NCBI GenBank assembly: GCA_913054135.1
Contig: CAJXJK010000003.1
Span: 124,001 to 188,000, forward strand
Source: an uncultured Flavobacteriales bacterium
GTDB taxonomy: Bacteria > Bacteroidota > Bacteroidia > Flavobacteriales_D > Crocinitomicaceae
DNA length: 64,000 bases
Direction: 5' to 3'
The notes below the pieces were generated by a model that worked only from the letters and a program-made list of their open reading frames with translations, searched no databases and had not been told where the DNA came from. Positions 20,698 to 48,206 of the stretch are shown here, piece after piece. The position numbers and the translations under genes were made by a program. Positions within the stretch are counted from its first letter, which is position 1. Each line of letters begins with the position of its first letter.

Positions 20698-23600
20698 TTA
20701 CTCTGTAATGATCAATTTCACAGTTCGACTTTGTTCTGATGAATTGAAGTTCAAGAAGTAAATTCCCGCTCTGTATTCTTCAATATTTATTGTCAACATT
20801 CCATTCTTGTCTTGCATGATGTTCTCATAAACTTTTGCTCCGAGCATATTAGTCATGGTCAATACCACTTTGTCTTCAATTAAGAAGTCGTATGCAATAT
20901 TTACCTCAACTCTTGAAGGGTTCGGATAAACATCTAAATTCCATTCTGGAGATTGCGTTAATCCTACATCATCATTATCGCCCACGACAAATGTTGTATC
21001 AACTGCACAACCAGAAGCGCCAGTCACAGTGATTGAGTAGGTGCCTGGAGTCAAATTAGTAAGATCTTCAGTTGTTTCTCCGCCTGGAGTCCACGCAAAT
21101 GTATAAGGACCATCAGATGTTGTTTCATTCACTGAGACATCAATTGCCCCTGTGGTACAAGTTGCACAAGATGAATTGGTAACTACACCTGAAATTGTGA
21201 AGTTGGTCGTGTTAATGATGTCAAAATCCATTGATACTGAACAACCATCATTGTCGTCAGTCACAGTCACAGAATAAGTCCCCTCAGACAATCCTGATAA
21301 GTCTTCAGTTGTTTCTCCTCCTGGTGTCCATAAGTATGAATACGGACCAACTCCGCCAACTACGTCAATATCAATTGAGCCTGTTCCATCATTACAGTTT
21401 TCATTGCTTAATGCAAATCCTGGAATGGCTACACCTGTAGTTATGTTATCAATTGTTATCGATACAGATTGAACACATCCTGAAGTGTTATTTGTTACAT
21501 CACAATCGTAGGTCCCTGCAGATAATCCTGATAAGTCTTCAGTTACTTCTCCATTAGGAGACCAATCAAACGACAAGTCTGTTGAACCTGAAACAGTCAA
21601 ATCGATAAATCCTGTAGCATCACCACAATTCTCATCTCCAAATGCTGAAAGAACAGTGATGTCGGCATCAAGATCTACATCAACATCCATTGTCATTGTA
21701 CAACCAAAGTTGTTTGTAACTTCAACACTGTATGCTCCTGCTGTCAATCCAGTAATGTCCTCAGTATTTTCACCGTTTGGTGACCAAACAATGGTTGTAT
21801 TGAATGTTCCTGGTCCACTTACATCAATATCGATCTCACCATCTGATCCCGCACAACTCTCATTGGTTACAGAAATAAGATCTAGGTTGAAAACACCATC
21901 ACTTAAAATTGTCACGGTCTCAATAAATTGACATCCGTCATTGTCGTCTGTAACTGTTACACTGTAATCACCAGGTGTTAAGCCATTCAAATCTTCAGTT
22001 GTTTCTCCGCCAGGAGACCATAAATATGAGAATGGACCGACACCTCCTGAAACAGTCACATCAATTGTTCCGTCTGCGTTTCCACAATCTTCATCTGTTG
22101 ATGTGATGTCAACAACCATTCCGGTAGTTGAATTGGTAACCGTAAATGTTTCTTCAACAACACATCCGCTTGTATTGTTAATTATAGTCACTGTGTAATC
22201 ACCAGCATTAAGGCCAGAAATATCCTCAGTAGACTCTCCGTTAGACCAAGCAATCGTTATGTCAGTTGAACCAGTCACTGTCAGATCAATTGATCCTGAA
22301 CCATCAGAACAGTTTTCGTCAGTTATTACAGATGTAAGGGTTAAGTCAACAATATTTACAACATCAAAAGTTTGAACATCTTCACATCCATCAAAGTTGT
22401 CAATTATCGTTACTTCGTATGTACCTTCTGATAAACCTGACAGGTCTTCAGTGATTTCACCGTTGTCCCAATCAAAGTCATAATTTCCAGAACCGCCAGC
22501 AACTGTCAAATCAATTGCTCCCGTACCGTCAGCACAGTTTTCGTCAGTCACCATTCCCGTAGCAGTGAAGGTTGCGGTATTGATTATTGGCACAACTAAA
22601 GTGTCAGTACATCCATTGTCGTCTGTTGTAATAATCTCCCAGTCATCAGCAAATAGATTAGATAATACACCAACAGGAGGTCCGTCGTTAAACCCATTAG
22701 CCGTAGTTGCAAAAGGAGCCGTTCCTCCACTAATATTGTAAACAATTTCACCATTGTTATTAGCACAGGTTTCGTCAGTTGTAGAAGTAACATTAATTGA
22801 AATATCAGATGCTTGATCTCCTACAGTATAAACCTCTGTAATCTCGCAACCAACATTATCAGTAATAGTTAATGTGTAAGTGCCCGCAGAAAGGCCAGAT
22901 ACTTCTGTTTGATTTCCTGGACCAGCAGGACATGAAGCGGTTGTACTAAACAATGGTCCCGCAGTTGGTCCACCACCCTGAGCAAAAATAACGTTCAGGT
23001 CTGGATCTATTAAGTCAAATGCGATCTCATTATCAAATCCACCAGCATTCCAAATCAATTCAATTAAGTCTCCTGTACAAGCAGTAAAGGTCTCTGTATT
23101 TGCACCACCGCCAGGAACCGTGAAATCACCTATAGATGTTCCATTAATTTGAACTGTAATAGATGCTCCATTCCAGCTGTTTCCTTGATCGGTCATGTCT
23201 AATGTATATTCACAACATGTCGCAGGTGTTGCGCCTGTCCAAGAGTATGTGTATAGCGCAATTCCACCAGAAACATCAACAGTAATTGATCCTTCGCCAT
23301 TACCACATTGTTCATTTTGAACCGTCTCGGTGGCCGTTAGTGCTCCTCCAGTGTTTAACACTTCACCTGAATAATTGATGACACACCCTGCGTTATCGGT
23401 TATAACACATGTGTAGATTCCAGGAGCTAATCCTGATATATCTTCAGTAGTTTCACCACCTGGTGACCACAAGTAAGTATATGGTAATGACCCTCCTGTA
23501 AACCCTAAATCAATAAAGCCATTCAATGAAGAGCAAGAAGCGTCTCCGATAACTTCATTACTGATGGCAAATCCGCCAGTGTTGTTGTTCACCGTTCCTG

Positions 23601-26600
23601 ATAAAACAATTGAACAGCCATTATTATCAGTAACTGTTAATTCATAGTCACCTCCATTCAATCCTGAAATGTCTTCAGTGGTTGCGGCATTGTCCCATGC
23701 AAAAGTATAAGGTGTTGCTCCACCCGATACATCTATATCGATTGCCCCAGTTCCGTCACCACAATTTTCATCTGTAATTGTGTTTATAGAAGCCGTAAAG
23801 CCAGCTGAGTTATTGATCACGGTTTCACTTGCGTTCACTGAACATCCATTAACGTCTTCAATTATTACCGAATATGAACCAGCAACTAAATTTGTTAAGT
23901 CTTCAGTTGTAGCTCCGTTTGACCAATCAAAAGAAATTGGTAATGCTCCGCCCGAAATCGTAAGGTCAATTGCACCCGCGGCATCACCACAATTTTCATC
24001 TGTTACTGCAGTAGATACTACTGTTAATCCGTTGGTGTTATTACCCACAGTATAAGATTCATTTGCCGTACATCCACCAGTTCCTGTTATTGTTACGTCA
24101 TAGGTGCCAGAGCCCAAACTTGAAATATCTTCGGTTGTAGCACCATTTGACCAAGTGAAAATAAACGGACTAACGCCTCCAGTAAAAGTAATGTCGATAG
24201 ATCCTGAAAGGTCTCCACAAATCTCATCTGAAATCAAAGAAGATGAAATGTCAATTCCTCCACCCGCAATTGAAGCTGAAGTACTTACGACACATCCATT
24301 GTTATCAGTTGCTGTTACAGAATATGTACCCGCAGAAAGTCCAGAAGCAACTGCAGTAGTCTGGCCATCTGACCATAAATAGGTAATTGGTGCCGTGCCT
24401 CCAGTTAAGCTCGTAGTAATTGACCCTGATGCATCTCCACAAACTTCATCCGTTGAGCCCGCTATTGCGATACTAAATCCAGGAGACGAATTTGAAATAG
24501 ATTCAACATAATCAATTGTACATCCATTATTATCAGTGACTGTTACAGAATAAGATCCGGCCGATAAACCGATAATATCTTCGCTTGTTGCAGCATTAGA
24601 CCATAAATAAGTATAAGGCATTGTTCCGCCTGCTACGTCAATATCAATTTGTCCACTTCCGTCAGTACAAACCTCATCAGTAGTACTGTTCGTTGAAACC
24701 GCCAAGTTTCCGCCCTGGTTGAAGAGAATTAGGTTTCCTGTTGTAACAGAACAACCATTAAAGTCAGTCACTGTGCAACTATAGTCACCAGCAGAAAGTC
24801 CTGAAATGTCTTCAGTTGTTTCTAAACCAGGCATCCATAAATAAGTATAAGGCGCAGTACCGTTTATTACATTAATATCAATTGAACCGGCGCCATCTCC
24901 ACAATTTTCATTCGTAATGGTGGTGGATAGTATTTCTAAGTCACTTGCTGTGTTTACTACCGTATAGCCTTGAGACAACAAAGTACATCCTACATCATCA
25001 GTAATTGTTACAGAATAAGTTCCGGCAGATAATGCAGATAAGTCTTGGTTTGTTGAAGCATTACTCCATAAGTAAGTATAAGGTCCTACTCCACCAGAGA
25101 CAGTTAAGTTTACACTTCCTCCATTATTACCACAAATTTCAGGTGAAACAGTTGCGCTTTCAGAAAGTGTTCCCGTGTTATTTCCAACACTGTAATTGAC
25201 CGTTAAATCGCAACCGCCATTATCAGTAATTGTTACTGAATATGCTCCGGCTGAAAGTCCACTAATGTCTTCAGTCGTTTCGAGGTTAGACCATGCAAAA
25301 GTGTAAGGAGGTGTTCCTCCACTCACGCTTATGTCAATTGATCCATCTCCATTTCCGCAGTTTTCATTGGATACAGATACGGCATCAATGTTTAATGTTC
25401 CCACATCATTTCCTACAACAAAATCTTGAATCAATTCACACTGATTGGCGTCAACAATAGTTGCAGTATACGTACCCGCAGAAAGTCCTGATTGATCATC
25501 AGTTGTTGGACCATTACTCCAACTTATTACATATGGCATTGTTGCATCCATCACCGTGATGTCAATTGCTCCCGTACCATCTCCACAATTTTCATCAAGT
25601 AATGATTCTGTGACAATGTTTGTATAGCAATAGCCAGAACAATTTGAAACATTATTAATAACAGAGAAATTGTCTTGTGCTGTACATCCATTTCCATCAA
25701 CAACAGTTAAGTAGTATGTCCCAACCCCGAGCGAAGTAATATCTTCTGTTGTGGCACCATTATCCCAACTGAATCCGTACGAACCTGTTCCACCACTTAC
25801 TGTTACATCAATTGCACCAGTGTTTTGGCTACATTCATCATTTGTCAATGATGCAAGTGTGATATCAATAGCTGGAAGAGCTCCAACAACAACATCTTCA
25901 GTGTAAATACATCCGTTATCATCAGTAATAGTTAGCGTGTAAGTCCCTTCAGATAATGCCGATATGTCTTCAGTTGTTGGACCATTTGACCAACTATAAG
26001 TATATGGCGCAGTACCTCCAGAGGTAACGACATCAATTGCTCCATCTGTTCCTCCAGAACAAGTAACTGGCGTTACTGTAACGACTGTATTCATACTTGA
26101 AATATTATTCAAGTTGAAAGTCATTGAATCCATACATCCGTTACCGTCAGTAGCATAAACTGTATAGGTGCCTGCAGTAATTCCAACCAAATCTTCAGTT
26201 GTTTGACCAGAAGACCAGTTGAAGGTATAGGGAGGGAAGTCACCTGTCACTGAAACGTCAATTGCACCATCTGCTCCACCGCATTGAGCTTGTGTCACAA
26301 ATCCAGCAACTTCTATTTCTTCAGGTTCATTGATCGTTACTAAAGTGTCTGGTAATTCAGACTGTAAGCTGATGTTCCAATTAAATATGTATCCATTATC
26401 AAGATTAAATTGGTCAGACACTTCCATTGTCCAATCTCCATTAAGGTCAGAACCAACAAGACCGTCGAGCTGTTCAAATGATTCGTAAGCTCCGGCAGGC
26501 AAATAATTATCCGTGTAGGTTCCGCCTACAGAAGCAGGGATTGTGTGAGTGTAATTATTAGACTCCCCGACCATTGTACCATAGTTTGGGGTAGCATTCC

Positions 26601-28854
26601 AGCAATATTCAAACCCAACACCCGGATCAGTGAGGTTAGAGTTTTGTCCATCAACCGGACCAGAAGCATATGGCTCACCAAGGTCACAAGAACCGCCTCC
26701 GTTAAACTCTTTTAAGATTACTTCTTCACCTGAAGGTGAAATAATTTTAATTTGTAAGTCTCCTAAGTAAGAGTGCTCCATTGTTGCACAAACTTGTTGA
26801 AGTTGTGTGATATTGTCAAGAGTTTGTCCTGGTTGAAATCCTTGGATGTTTAATATCGCATCATATGACACACCCGTTCCGTCTGGCAAGAAAGTAGTGT
26901 CTGCATCAAAAATTCCACCAATCAAAAGGGCTTCTGCTTTACATCCATAAATGTCATAAACTTGAACTGAATAGGTGTCAGCATCAAGACCAGCAATAGG
27001 GTTTGTGCTGTATTGAATTGTTGTTCCAGTTCCACTATTATCGGTCACATGAAATGTATAAGGAGGGAAACCACCACTCGCATTTACATTGATTTCTCCC
27101 GTACTGTTTTCAAAACAAGTTAAATCTGTACCGTCTAATGTAAACTCAATTGGTTGAGCATCATCAATAAACAAAATTGCTGTGTCAAGAGGTGAGCATA
27201 AATCTGGCTGATAAATGATATAAACCGTTTCTTGCCCCTCAGGCAATGCATCAGCAAAAGTGTTAATGAAAATAGTTCCCTCAGTTTGACCAGCAGGAAT
27301 CGTCAACACAGTATCAATGAATTCGTAATCTACTCCGTTAGTTGCAGACCCCAAAACTTGATATGTGATTTGAGTATCATCAGTTGAGGGAGCGTCAATT
27401 CCGAAAGTGAAACTTGCCGGGATACACCCTTCTAAAGCTATGTTGTCGGCATTTACTGTGTTGGTTTGAACTGTGATATCCTTTGTAAAACCGGAAAAAT
27501 AGCCAGCTGCACCAACGTTACCACTAAGATTGATTAATGATACTCTCGTCAAATCATCTGATGTAATCAAGATATCACCTGTATAAGCATTTGCTAATTT
27601 ATAGGTCACGTAACTTCCCGTCCCTGTTACGGCATCCCCGGCACCTAGGGGAGTTCCATCAACTACAACTGCTGCGCCAGTATTTGCAATAATGTTAATT
27701 TGAGCAGTCCCAATGAAGTCAACATCAGGTAATTGCACAGATTTTGAACCTGAACATCCAATTGGAGGCAGAAAATTTAAACCACATTGGCGTTCATTAT
27801 CATCAGTAGTTCCATCTCCTGAATTCTCTGTTTGATAAACATAAACGTCTTGAGAGCTTTCAATGAACATGTTTTCATTTCCTGTGAAATCAGTATCAAC
27901 ATAGGTATAAAACTCACCTGCATTAAGAGTGGTTGTTGGAACCGCGCTTCCGTTTAGGAATATTTCTGTTCCGTCAACGGTTGCAATTACAATAACTTTT
28001 TCATTATCAATTCCCTCTCCTTTGATTACAACATATTCATCTCCAATTAGGTCAATTGGCACAATTTGATCTATTCCTAAATCACGACCTGTTGCCGGAA
28101 CTCCCCCAATAAGGGCATTTCCACCTAACCATGAACCTGTACTTACTACAATGTCTTTATCAGAAGTAATGTGTGTTCCATTCACCCCATTTGTGTTGTT
28201 TGTTGAGCCCGGCTCATCTAAATAAGCGGCAACAACATATGATTCTCCTTCATTCAAAACAACAATGATATCGTCTGAGGTCCCAGCTGTTTGAGGTGCG
28301 TCTTTGAATATTACTCCCGTACTTATATCCGTAACGTTGACAGTTGTATTGTCTTCTGTGGCCATGATCCCGAACACATTGGCTTTACGATAATCTTCTC
28401 CAGTGTTATTGAAGAGGTGACCAGTTCTAAAATCTGTACCTAGTGCCGCCTTAGCTCCTTTAGAGGTGAGCGAACCAGCTTGAGGGTCTGCAAGAACTCT
28501 AATATTCACATAGAAAGGAAAGTTCCCTGTTAAGATAAGTCCCTCATCAGTCATTACCGTGTTCAATTCACTTTCTTGAACCAAAAACTGTGTTGCGGTA
28601 CCTGCGCCCAATAAATAACTGCTTGAAGAAACATTCGAAATGTTTTGGGTTGTAATGACTGTTCCTGACCCGTCTGTTATAGTCACATCAAAAGGAGTTG
28701 TTGATGGGGTGCTCAAAACAATGTAATGAGTTCCTTCATCTTCTCGCCCAAACATAGGCGGGATGTAGTGTTTTGTGTCAAGCTGTGCGAATAAGCTTGG
28801 GGCACTAAAAAATATCGCAATTGTTAAGAGTAGTAGGCGGGTTAAGTTTTTCAT
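20698..28854 (-). CDS. giant SprB-repeat surface protein with T9SS type A sorting domain
   Basis: 2718 residues, secreted and probably cell-surface. The signal peptide ends at FAQ (about 1-24). An IgGFc-binding-like N-terminal domain covers about 28-460 (HYIPPMFGREDEGTHYIVLS; ATEDNTTVNVTD). A Calx-beta-like domain is at about 475-570, a degenerate SprB unit at about 578, and a P-domain (proprotein-convertase type, MEHSYLGDLQIKIISPSGEE) at about 655-835. From about 850 to 2625 there are about 22 SprB repeats with the core PYTYLWSNGATTEDISGLSAG. The final 80 residues are a type A sorting domain (NLDVYPNPS...). SprB repeats occur in the gliding adhesin SprB of Flavobacterium. It may act in adhesion or gliding; no gld/spr genes are in the window. 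Confidence 0.93.
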   Translation of the reverse strand: MKNLTRLLLLTIAIFFSAPSLFAQLDTKHYIPPMFGREDEGTHYIVLSTPSTTPFDVTITDGSGTVITTQNISNVSSSSYLLGAGTATQFLVQESELNTVMTDEGLILTGNFPFYVNIRVLADPQAGSLTSKGAKAALGTDFRTGHLFNNTGEDYRKANVFGIMATEDNTTVNVTDISTGVIFKDAPQTAGTSDDIIVVLNEGESYVVAAYLDEPGSTNNTNGVNGTHITSDKDIVVSTGSWLGGNALIGGVPATGRDLGIDQIVPIDLIGDEYVVIKGEGIDNEKVIVIATVDGTEIFLNGSAVPTTTLNAGEFYTYVDTDFTGNENMFIESSQDVYVYQTENSGDGTTDDNERQCGLNFLPPIGCSGSKSVQLPDVDFIGTAQINIIANTGAAVVVDGTPLGAGDAVTGTGSYVTYKLANAYTGDILITSDDLTRVSLINLSGNVGAAGYFSGFTKDITVQTNTVNADNIALEGCIPASFTFGIDAPSTDDTQITYQVLGSATNGVDYEFIDTVLTIPAGQTEGTIFINTFADALPEGQETVYIIYQPDLCSPLDTAILFIDDAQPIEFTLDGTDLTCFENSTGEINVNASGGFPPYTFHVTDNSGTGTTIQYSTNPIAGLDADTYSVQVYDIYGCKAEALLIGGIFDADTTFLPDGTGVSYDAILNIQGFQPGQTLDNITQLQQVCATMEHSYLGDLQIKIISPSGEEVILKEFNGGGSCDLGEPYASGPVDGQNSNLTDPGVGFEYCWNATPNYGTMVGESNNYTHTIPASVGGTYTDNYLPAGAYESFEQLDGLVGSDLNGDWTMEVSDQFNLDNGYIFNWNISLQSELPDTLVTINEPEEIEVAGFVTQAQCGGADGAIDVSVTGDFPPYTFNWSSGQTTEDLVGITAGTYTVYATDGNGCMDSMTFNLNNISSMNTVVTVTPVTCSGGTDGAIDVVTSGGTAPYTYSWSNGPTTEDISALSEGTYTLTITDDNGCIYTEDVVVGALPAIDITLASLTNDECSQNTGAIDVTVSGGTGSYGFSWDNGATTEDITSLGVGTYYLTVVDGNGCTAQDNFSVINNVSNCSGYCYTNIVTESLLDENCGDGTGAIDITVMDATMPYVISWSNGPTTDDQSGLSAGTYTATIVDANQCELIQDFVVGNDVGTLNIDAVSVSNENCGNGDGSIDISVSGGTPPYTFAWSNLETTEDISGLSAGAYSVTITDNGGCDLTVNYSVGNNTGTLSESATVSPEICGNNGGSVNLTVSGGVGPYTYLWSNASTNQDLSALSAGTYSVTITDDVGCTLLSQGYTVVNTASDLEILSTTITNENCGDGAGSIDINVINGTAPYTYLWMPGLETTEDISGLSAGDYSCTVTDFNGCSVTTGNLILFNQGGNLAVSTNSTTDEVCTDGSGQIDIDVAGGTMPYTYLWSNAATSEDIIGLSAGSYSVTVTDNNGCTIDYVESISNSSPGFSIAIAGSTDEVCGDASGSITTSLTGGTAPITYLWSDGQTTAVASGLSAGTYSVTATDNNGCVVSTSASIAGGGIDISSSLISDEICGDLSGSIDITFTGGVSPFIFTWSNGATTEDISSLGSGTYDVTITGTGGCTANESYTVGNNTNGLTVVSTAVTDENCGDAAGAIDLTISGGALPISFDWSNGATTEDLTNLVAGSYSVIIEDVNGCSVNASETVINNSAGFTASINTITDENCGDGTGAIDIDVSGGATPYTFAWDNAATTEDISGLNGGDYELTVTDNNGCSIVLSGTVNNNTGGFAISNEVIGDASCSSLNGFIDLGFTGGSLPYTYLWSPGGETTEDISGLAPGIYTCVITDNAGCVINYSGEVLNTGGALTATETVQNEQCGNGEGSITVDVSGGIALYTYSWTGATPATCCEYTLDMTDQGNSWNGASITVQINGTSIGDFTVPGGGANTETFTACTGDLIELIWNAGGFDNEIAFDLIDPDLNVIFAQGGGPTAGPLFSTTASCPAGPGNQTEVSGLSAGTYTLTITDNVGCEITEVYTVGDQASDISINVTSTTDETCANNNGEIVYNISGGTAPFATTANGFNDGPPVGVLSNLFADDWEIITTDDNGCTDTLVVPIINTATFTATGMVTDENCADGTGAIDLTVAGGSGNYDFDWDNGEITEDLSGLSEGTYEVTIIDNFDGCEDVQTFDVVNIVDLTLTSVITDENCSDGSGSIDLTVTGSTDITIAWSNGESTEDISGLNAGDYTVTIINNTSGCVVEETFTVTNSTTGMVVDITSTDEDCGNADGTIDVTVSGGVGPFSYLWSPGGETTEDLNGLTPGDYSVTVTDDNDGCQFIETVTILSDGVFNLDLISVTNESCAGSDGEIDIDVSGPGTFNTTIVWSPNGENTEDITGLTAGAYSVEVTNNFGCTMTMDVDVDLDADITVLSAFGDENCGDATGFIDLTVSGSTDLSFDWSPNGEVTEDLSGLSAGTYDCDVTNNTSGCVQSVSITIDNITTGVAIPGFALSNENCNDGTGSIDIDVVGGVGPYSYLWTPGGETTEDLSGLSEGTYSVTVTDDNDGCSVSMDFDIINTTNFTISGVVTNSSCATCTTGAIDVSVNETTSDGPYTFAWTPGGETTEDLTNLTPGTYSITVTGASGCAVDTTFVVGDNDDVGLTQSPEWNLDVYPNPSRVEVNIAYDFLIEDKVVLTMTNMLGAKVYENIMQDKNGMLTINIEEYRAGIYFLNFNSSEQSRTVKLIITE
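20970..26310 (-). repeat. tandem SprB repeats (about 22 units plus one upstream)
   Basis: By eye I count 22 units after the P-domain, each of about 70-80 residues, plus one degenerate unit near residue 578. Each unit runs from a DENCGDGTGAIDI-like start, through GGTxPYTYxWSNG and TTEDISGLSAGTYSVTVTD, to NNGC. The two cysteines at the two ends are kept in nearly all units, which suggests a disulfide per unit. Units differ enough that the DNA is not a perfect repeat. Confidence 0.9.
22915..23240 (-). other. domain inserted inside one SprB repeat
   Basis: In the unit beginning VQNEQCGNGEG, the strand YSWTG is followed by about 105 foreign residues (about 1873-1980: CCEYTLDMTDQGNSWNGA, FTACTGDLIELIWNAGGFDNE) before the repeat resumes with TEVSGLSAGTYTLTITDN. 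The insert has its own Cys residues and a beta-sandwich-like pattern. It replaces the short TTED loop of the repeat and leaves the flanking repeat halves intact. Confidence 0.75.
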
Positions 28855-44816: not shown

Positions 44817-45245
44817 ATGAAGACGATTTCTCCTTTCCATGTGGCAGTGCCCATTTACGATCTAAATGAAGCCAAAGAATTTTACCTAAAATGTTTTAAA
44901 TGTGATGTTGGCAGAACATCTGACAAATGGATTGATCTAAACTTATATGGACATCAATTTGTGCTACATCTTCGACCAAAGCCAAATTCAGAAGACGAGC
45001 ACCATTATAATCAGGTAGATGGAAAATCAGTCCCGGTTCCGCACTATGGGGTAGTTTTAGAGTGGAATCAATGGGAAGAACTCTCGGTTAGATTAAAGTC
45101 TTTACAAATCAAATTCCTAATTGAACCATACATACGTTTTCAAGGCGAAGTGGGTGAACAAGCAACTATGTTTTTTCTTGATCCATCCGGAAACGCCTTA
45201 GAGTTCAAAGCTTTTAAAAATATTGATCAATTGTTTGCTAAGTAG
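44817..45245 (+). CDS. VOC-family (glyoxalase/dioxygenase fold) protein
   Basis: 142 residues, one glyoxalase-fold unit pair. [21 protein letters not shown] opens the protein and [16 protein letters not shown] closes it. A His near residue 8, a His in HQFVLHL and a Glu in ALEFKAF can be metal ligands. Members range from glyoxalases to antibiotic-resistance proteins. The long loop [22 protein letters not shown] is a feature of one VOC subgroup. The substrate is unknown. A -7-like TACATTTC with an upstream TTG at suitable spacing precedes it. It faces the broken kelch gene with 10 bases between the stops. Confidence 0.85.
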
Positions 45246-45255
45246 GGGATACTCA

Positions 45256-46416
45256 TTATCGCACCATAAATTTATAAGACTGGTCAAAAACATTGATGAC
45301 ATACACACCTTTTGACCAAGTTGAAGTGCTCACTTGATAATGGTCTTTTTGGTCATTGAGTTCCGTCATTAATTTTCCGTGAACACTAAAGATTCTTACT
45401 ACTGACGTAAATGGCAATTCGGTAATAAATACACTTTCTAAATCTGAATTATAAAATACATTTACTTCGGAGTTAAGACTAATTCTAATAGTGTACCTAG
45501 AAATAGTAGCCATTCTATTAAAACTGTCATCCAAACCAGAAACCCAATAAATCCCTTTAAATGGAATCACGCAAGATGCCACACCACGCCTTGCTGGTAA
45601 AGGGACGCTTTCAGCTTGGTCCCAAATATCTTTGGAAGGGTCGTATCGCCAAAAATCAGATTTCATCTCTCCGCTTTCATTTTCTCCTGAGCCTACAAAA
45701 GCCCATCCATTCAAGACTTCAGCTTGCGCATACCATCTTACACCACCAGGAAAATCTGCTTTCTGTGACCAAGAGTTTGTTTCTGGATTATATTACCAAA
45801 TATCCTCTTGTAAGTTTTCAAAACTGTCTTTTCCTAGCCCACAATATCCTTTATCGTAAAGTGAAAAACCAACCGTTTCAAACCTTGGGGCTAAAGGAAA
45901 GCTTGCAACTTCTGCCCAACTATCTGTTGTTGGATTATACCTCCAAAAATCATTGAAATAATCAATCGTGTCACGTCCTGTACCGACATAGATTTGACCA
46001 TTAATTATAAAAGAGGCTGTTGCCCACCTGGCAGCAAAAGGAAAACTGTTTTTTTGAGTCCAAATTTGCTCATCCATATTAAATTCCCACACTTCATTGA
46101 GCGGATTCAAGCTTGGATCCACACCTCCTATTATATAAGCCTTTTCATCAATAGATTGAACTGTTGCATATTGTCTTGGGGTTCCTGGAAATGCTGTAAC
46201 ATCAATCCATTCATTTAATCTAATGTTATAACCGTAAAAATCATTTCACTGCGAAAAGCCTGCATGATTGCCCATGCCCAAATAAATGACACTCCTATGT
46301 GTAAAAGCAACTGCATCATCTCTCCCCACACCTTCAATATCTACATTAGAGGTCCATCCATATTCTTGTGAAAATGTCATTTGACCAAAAAAGATTAAAA
46401 ATATGAGGAGCCGCAT
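45256..46416 (-). pseudogene. kelch-repeat T9SS protein interrupted by two in-frame stop codons
   Basis: Reading from an ATG at 46416, the frame begins MRLLIFLIFFGQMTFSQEYG, a signal peptide. It stays in one frame to a TAA at 45256, 386 codons in all. Two stops interrupt it: TGA at 46246-46248 (codon 57) and TAA at 45793-45795 (codon 208). Both sit inside otherwise intact kelch units: NDFYGYN, EVWEFN, DFWRYN, DIW-stop-YNPETNSW and DFWRYDP. At the second stop the sibling units carry Glu or Arg, so a single substitution (for example GAA to TAA) explains it. There is no frameshift. The last roughly 75 residues are a T9SS type A sorting domain (ending KFMVR). Confidence 0.85.
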
Positions 46417-46505: not shown

Positions 46506-47267
46506 ATGAAATTCAGCCCCTACTTATTAATCCCATTTATCGCAATCAATGCGTGTAGTGATTCAGAAGAACAAAGTGAAAACACAAGCGCCGACGAAGT
46601 GAATCAAACTATTGATAGTTCAATTGTAATAGAAGATATTGGCGACCTAACGATAATTGACTCTACCACCTTGCCAAAAAGAATGCAAGATGAGGCCAAT
46701 ATGATTTTGAGCTGGGCTGATGGTGACCTTGATAAGGATGGAGTTAGTGAGAAGGTGGTTGTCTATTCCCGTGATTTAGAATGGGAAAGTTCAGCTCCTA
46801 GAGACTTGGTGATTTATAAGCAAACTGATGGCGAATGGGAAGAATGGGTTAATACAGACAATACAATCGGAAGAGCAGATGAAGGTGGAATGATGGGAGA
46901 CCCTTTTGGTGGAATCGCAATTAAGAATGGAATCTTAGAGATTAATCATTCAGGCGGTTCAAGCTGGAAATGGGGAAATACGCATAAGTATAGGTTCCAA
47001 GATGGTGACTTTTATTTGATCGGCTATACAGGCGTCTATGGTAAACCTTGTTTATATTGGGAAGATAGAGATTACAACCTATCAACTGGAGACTGCACCT
47101 TTACTTTTGAAGCAGAGGAATGTGAAGAATATGCCGCAGAGGAAGATTATGGCCCAAAAAGAGAAGAATCTTTTAATCATAAAATGAAAAATCTTCCTAC
47201 TCTCATTGACATGAGAGAATACAGTTATACATTCCAGTCGCCTAATGGTGAAGACTTCTATTTGTAA
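46506..47267 (+). CDS. hypothetical lipoprotein
   Basis: 253 residues. The signal peptide ends with a lipobox, AINAC, before SDSEEQSENTS, an acidic Ser-rich spacer suggesting surface or outer-membrane sorting. The mature part has an FG-GAP-like segment, GDLDKDGVSEKVVVYSRD, and a Cys-containing region near the end (LSTGDCTFTFEAEECEEY). No family was recognised. An inverted repeat (AAGAAT, then 10 bases, then ATTCTT, at 46459-46480) lies next to a TACTTTTA -7-like box upstream. It is three bases before the dehydratase gene. Confidence 0.78.
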   Translation: MKFSPYLLIPFIAINACSDSEEQSENTSADEVNQTIDSSIVIEDIGDLTIIDSTTLPKRMQDEANMILSWADGDLDKDGVSEKVVVYSRDLEWESSAPRDLVIYKQTDGEWEEWVNTDNTIGRADEGGMMGDPFGGIAIKNGILEINHSGGSSWKWGNTHKYRFQDGDFYLIGYTGVYGKPCLYWEDRDYNLSTGDCTFTFEAEECEEYAAEEDYGPKREESFNHKMKNLPTLIDMREYSYTFQSPNGEDFYL

Positions 47268-47270
47268 AAT

Positions 47271-48206
47271 ATGACCAAACAATCCTACCTCAACATTTGC
47301 GAAAAAATAGCTCCTTTCATTCACAGAACACCTGTGATGTCTTCACAATTGATTAATGATATTGCAGGATGTGAAGTGTTTTTTAAATGTGAGAACTTTC
47401 AAAAAATGGGTGCATTCAAAATGCGCGGAGCTACTAATGCAATTCTAAATTTGTCAGAGGAACAAAGGGCTAAAGGAGTCGTAACACACTCATCAGGAAA
47501 CTTTGCACAAGCACTTTCATTGGCAGCAAGGAGCTTAGGAGTAACAGCCTATATCGTCATGCCCTCTTCGGCGCCTCAAGTCAAAATTGACGCGGTAAAA
47601 GGATATGGTGGAATCGTTTCAATTTGCCCTCCGACTTTGAAAGACAGAGAAGAAAGTGCAAAAGCAATTGAAAATGAAAAAGGCGCCTCCTTTCTACATC
47701 CATCAAATGATGATGATGTGATTCATGGACAAGGAACAGCTGCAATTGAATTATTAGAAGATTACCCTAACCTTAATGCCATCTTCACCCCAGTTGGTGG
47801 TGGTGGACTTTTAGGCGGAACAGCTTTGGCCGCCAGTCTTTTTGCCCCTGATTGTAATGTTTATGCCGGTGAGCCTGAAGAGGCTGATGATGCCTATCGG
47901 TCTTTGAAATCTGGAAAAATAGAAACTAATGATTCAGCCAATACAATTGCTGATGGACTTAAAACTCAATTGGGTGATCGCAACTTTCCAATTATTCAAG
48001 AGCACGTAAAAGAGATTTTTTTAGTGAGTGAAGAAGAAATATTAGAAGCCTTAAAACTGATTTGGACTCGAATGAAAATAATCGTTGAGCCAAGCTCTGC
48101 TGTAGCTTTTGCGGCACTGTTGAAAAACAAAGAGGCTCTCAAAAATCAAAAAGTAGGAATTATCATATCTGGCGGAAATGTTGATTTAGACAATCTTCCT
48201 TTTTAA
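47271..48206 (+). CDS. PLP-dependent threonine/serine dehydratase or racemase
   Basis: 311 residues, fold type II. The PLP lysine is in GAFKMRGATNAI (about 44), the phosphate/substrate loop SSGNFAQAL has Phe where many enzymes have His, and the glycine loop is GGGGLLGG. No ACT domain is present, so the protein is short. Family members deaminate threonine/serine or racemize serine; the exact reaction is uncertain. The gene is followed by GH20 with a one-base TAATG overlap, so it is in the glycan operon by position, which is unusual for an amino-acid enzyme. Confidence 0.88.
   Translation: MTKQSYLNICEKIAPFIHRTPVMSSQLINDIAGCEVFFKCENFQKMGAFKMRGATNAILNLSEEQRAKGVVTHSSGNFAQALSLAARSLGVTAYIVMPSSAPQVKIDAVKGYGGIVSICPPTLKDREESAKAIENEKGASFLHPSNDDDVIHGQGTAAIELLEDYPNLNAIFTPVGGGGLLGGTALAASLFAPDCNVYAGEPEEADDAYRSLKSGKIETNDSANTIADGLKTQLGDRNFPIIQEHVKEIFLVSEEEILEALKLIWTRMKIIVEPSSAVAFAALLKNKEALKNQKVGIIISGGNVDLDNLPF

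Follow-up and report, generated by a model that had tools for sequence, protein, structure and literature searches.

A secreted kelch-propeller gene with two in-frame nonsense codons is very probably a young unitary pseudogene

Secreted kelch-repeat proteins of Bacteroidota, bearing the TIGR04183 domain, consist of a signal peptide, a kelch propeller, and a C-terminal sorting domain. The gene described here has the same layout but, unlike these proteins, is interrupted twice. Other six-bladed kelch structures, namely SAKe6, KLHL12, and KEAP1, are designed or eukaryotic adaptor domains and, in contrast to the kelch gene here, have no T9SS domain. For the interruptions, comparison can be made with pseudogenes of Salmonella. 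Among those with a single lesion, 131 of 346 have a premature stop; multiple lesions, whatever their type, occur in 32 of 378 pseudogenes (PMC2916853). Hence, a nonsense point mutation is a common first lesion. The Salmonella nonsense pseudogenes resemble the present locus in having a premature stop made by point mutation, an intact syntenic orthologue, and little drift. They differ in that two nonsense codons, rather than one, are found here, and in that the nearest relative compared here is far more distant. Our search for literature on pseudogenes of kelch and T9SS proteins found nothing relevant.

The gene is located in a 64,000 nucleotide stretch of DNA, which was analysed as a whole and is called the window below. 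The assembly to which the window belongs comprises 4.05 Mb, in 24 contigs, and is 98.5% complete. An earlier note, made from the letters of the window, described a continuous frame, with a signal peptide at its start and a type A sorting domain at its end, that two stops interrupt, and gave no strand. Translation and family matches agree with this description, and the gene lies on the minus strand. Here, positions 46416 to 45256 form a single frame of 386 codons, plus a terminal TAA, with two internal stops. The translation begins MRLLIFLIFFGQMTFSQE and the N-terminal signal peptide reads MRLLIFLIFFGQMTFSQ. Read on the plus strand, the same interval has many stops. The frame contains no frameshift, and is broken only by TGA at codon 57 and TAA at codon 208. 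Matches to the Pfam families Kelch_1, Kelch_3, and Kelch_4 have E-values between 1e-20 and 1e-23. At residues 329-384, the sorting domain TIGR04183 scores 25.2 bits, passing the NCBIfam cut-off of 23, while Pfam Por_Secre_tail (PF18962) scores 23.8, under its cut-off of 27. The features of the gene are as follows.

45256-46416, minus strand: interrupted gene, very probably a pseudogene, with signal peptide, six-bladed kelch propeller, and T9SS type A C-terminal domain (translation, families, orthologue model)
46363-46416, minus strand: hydrophobic signal peptide at the N terminus, about codons 1-18 (seen in the translation; cleavage site putative)
46246-46248, minus strand: premature stop 1, TGA, codon 57, in a loop of blade 1 (translation, orthologue alignment, model)
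45793-45795, minus strand: premature stop 2, TAA, codon 208, in a strand of blade 4 (translation, orthologue alignment, model)
45259-45483, minus strand: C-terminal region with the sorting domain, spanning about codons 312-386 and rich in beta structure in the model (TIGR04183; orthologue strands 319-385)

A natural guess is that the product was a secreted, propeller-based binding protein. The remaining kelch matches of the host genome are reported open. Several open kelch genes form a tandem cluster at C6:154008-158491, and more copies are at C8:15660 and C3:102958. A candidate for a second interrupted kelch gene, at C8:73037, was rejected; the gene is open and the flagged stops are upstream of its start. 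Separately, the longest open frame in the window, of 2718 residues, is on the minus strand at 20698-28854.

The earlier note had suggested that close relatives be searched for an uninterrupted version of the gene. A single protein, used to query a named collection, returned no match, and an alignment query recovered orthologues from Crocinitomicaceae MAGs and from Crocinitomix. Hence, the host genome probably belongs in or near the Crocinitomicaceae. Among 200 family genomes, the best matches come from the congeners G042 (50% identity) and G026 (48% identity), where the gene runs its whole length with no interruption. Further intact orthologues, with about 40% identity, are in Crocinitomix and other genera. 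The interrupted frame aligns end to end with the intact orthologues, which excludes a chance open frame. On contig C335 of G042, the orthologue has the same neighbours as in the window, in the same order and orientation. These are a TPR protein, a glyoxalase-family gene, the counterpart of the gene at 46506, and a PALP enzyme. In the window, three of these neighbours are as follows.

44817-45245, plus strand: flanking intact gene of the glyoxalase superfamily, syntenic with G042
46506-47267, plus strand: intact divergent neighbour, whose N terminus is lipoprotein-like and which matches no Pfam family, syntenic with G042
47271-48206, plus strand: intact neighbour, a PALP-family enzyme with 87% identity to its syntenic counterpart in G042

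Thus, the frame is broken relative to intact orthologues, and G042 has an orthologue at the same locus, as is expected of a unitary pseudogene. The arrangement around the G026 orthologue differs from that in the window. In the complete genome of a third congener, G004, we found distant kelch paralogues only, and no close orthologue. Hence, the gene was either lost or never gained there, and seems dispensable. The glyoxalase-family neighbour in G042 (G042:C335:1870-2294) matches as two segments that lie in different frames, and a stop is located close to its end; a frameshift in this MAG may be the cause. In a promoter comparison, the intergenic stretch between the divergent genes was too diverged from G042 for its conservation to be judged.

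For the intact G026 orthologue, the AlphaFold model has a mean pLDDT of 91.5. By our reading of the strand list, the model appears to contain six four-stranded blades, of which the sixth is completed by a strand from the N terminus, and then a beta domain. The TM-score of this model, by target length, is about 0.8 with the six-bladed kelch structures of SAKe6, KLHL12, and KEAP1. Among solved structures, such designed and human kelch domains are the nearest to the model. With the stops in blades 1 and 4, the propeller of a product ending at either one could not close and the sorting domain would be absent.

Neither position is a stop codon in any of the orthologues aligned. All 15 orthologues examined have Ser at the residue matching codon 57, encoded by AGY in 14 of these and by TCA in one. 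Conversely, the position of codon 208 is variable among orthologues, and can be E, K, R, S, or Q. The earlier note placed codon 208 in a motif where other kelch units of the protein have Glu or Arg. This is correct; these units read EVWEF, DFWRY, and DFWRY. It also remarked that a single substitution separates each stop from a sense codon. While true, this holds for any stop codon and so carries no information. For codon 57 the remark is also incomplete, since the AGY Ser codon of the 14 orthologues is two changes from TGA. Hence, either a TCN codon in the ancestor or one more change must be assumed, which counts against the pseudogene reading.

The note further listed four readings, namely very recent loss, population polymorphism, consensus error, and readthrough. 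Of these, recent loss is supported: orthologues in relatives are uninterrupted, neither site is a stop in them, and the window copy has not drifted. Using ten close orthologues, including the window copy, we counted 64 alignment columns that are invariant in the other nine. The window copy retains 62 of these, departing only through the stop at codon 57 and through V201N. In intact orthologues, between 0 and 4 such columns differ, and so the window copy is not unusual. Its maximum-likelihood branch is 0.60, compared to 0.58 for the intact sister. Differences between the window copy and G042, at codon positions 1, 2, and 3, number 151, 122, and 216. For the intact pair, G042 and G026, the counts are 155, 120, and 233. 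Relaxed selection is not visible in the window copy, which fits a very recent loss, and also a gene that still works. If no more than one additional change is allowed in the columns retained, neutral divergence since the loss is less than about 3% per site, and one extra stop is expected, on average, at about 1.8% per-site divergence, where both figures are rough and ignore indels and mutation bias. The two values agree. Hence, the loss would be recent, and it is unsurprising that no frameshift accompanies the two stops. Note that, with orthologues at about 50% identity, the age of the loss is bounded rather than dated.

We conclude that the locus, which would once have encoded a secreted kelch-propeller protein, is very probably a unitary pseudogene of very young age, made by nonsense mutations. 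The main alternative, less likely than a young pseudogene, is an intact gene that looks broken through incorrect bases in the assembly. Assembly errors are well documented as a source of apparent pseudogenes, with false internal stops known in public genomes (PMC11017572), and the conserved residues of the window copy are otherwise kept. Yet two independent nonsense errors within one 1.2 kb gene, with no frameshift, argue against random error. We also scanned about 1.24 Mb of the genome, containing 727 long ORFs, by codon usage, for stops with coding signal on both sides. By inspection, nearly all of the 18 candidates were junctions of adjacent genes, or shadows. Convincing in-frame stops were present in two genes, the kelch gene and an LRR lipoprotein gene, though the scan has limited sensitivity and did not flag codon 57. 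With just one other such gene in 1.24 Mb, errors of this type would be rare in the assembly. Furthermore, were three stops to fall at random in the sampled coding sequence, the chance of two being in one gene is, by a rough estimate, about 1% at most. We consider consensus error unlikely. The LRR lipoprotein gene (C3:104084-105121) has one in-frame TGA, at 104849-104851, with coding signal either side. It adjoins a kelch T9SS gene, and the LRR orthologue in G042, at 43% identity, is open. A different possibility, compatible with the pseudogene reading, is that intact and broken alleles coexist in the species, and that the sequenced strain has the broken one. The very small amount of drift since loss fits a recent, perhaps unfixed, allele. 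However, two stops on one haplotype suggest slightly more age than a fresh single mutation, and the comparison, which covers one genome per species, gave no positive evidence of polymorphism. Such polymorphism is possible, if somewhat doubtful.

Programmed or tolerated stop readthrough, also raised in the note, would yield the full protein. The frame downstream of the stops is well conserved, TGA is the rarest terminator (12% of the 727 long ORFs), and the tRNA-Trp has features linked to UGA readthrough (PMC13092985). We found a single tRNA-Trp(CCA), at C5:171568-171639, with a U11-A24 pair. The host tRNA-Trp is, in this respect, like the Hirsh suppressor. In the anticodon stem, the topmost pair is a C27.U43 mismatch, which shortens the stem to 4 pairs. 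The A24 and mismatch states are common to G004, G026, and G008, and a variant form is present in G011. Features of this sort have been tied to both UGA readthrough and lower UGA use (PMC13092985). Consistent with the latter, the 12% of terminators that are TGA compares with a 28% share among random nonsense changes, but terminator use has other causes too. The note would turn to readthrough if relatives had stops at the same places; instead, the stops are absent from all orthologues, and the proposal falls on this point. In addition, the stops are of two kinds, and tRNA-Trp does not read TAA. At codon 57, it would insert Trp in place of the invariant Ser. Hence, a leaky tRNA-Trp does not rescue the kelch gene, and readthrough to the full protein is highly improbable. 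Selenocysteine insertion at the TGA was rejected; SelB is absent, with only other translation GTPases matched, none over the cut-off. Similarly, no suppressor with a stop anticodon is among the 29 tRNAs found, a list that is incomplete (Ala, Ile, and some Arg are missing). A narrower proposal is that the tRNA-Trp of this lineage would read UGA often enough to partly suppress premature TGA codons in dispensable exported genes (such as codon 57 and the LRR lipoprotein gene), which would then persist longer than other stops. We think this quite improbable. The pieces of the kelch gene might also be translated separately, as split genes, from internal starts, and ORFs starting with GTG or TTG do exist (45793-46122 and 45256-45714). 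However, these cut across propeller blades and have no signal peptide, no relative has a split version, and there is no ATG in the 30 codons after the TAA. This explanation is scarcely tenable.

If the locus is a very young unitary pseudogene, a gene working until recently would have taken one nonsense mutation, with the second following in the absence of selection. Translation would end after 56 residues, producing the signal peptide and part of blade 1. The truncated product would have neither the propeller nor the T9SS sorting domain, and the protein would be lost. From the assembled sequence and its comparison with relatives, we infer the loss of function, the order of the stops, and the real presence of the stops in the sequenced cells.

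The locus would thus represent the early decay of one dispensable secreted propeller gene, an ordinary event of little import alone. It is a clean case for weighing assembly errors against real young pseudogenes. In the family, the lack of a close copy in G004, and the broken copy here, suggest that kelch T9SS proteins turn over quickly.
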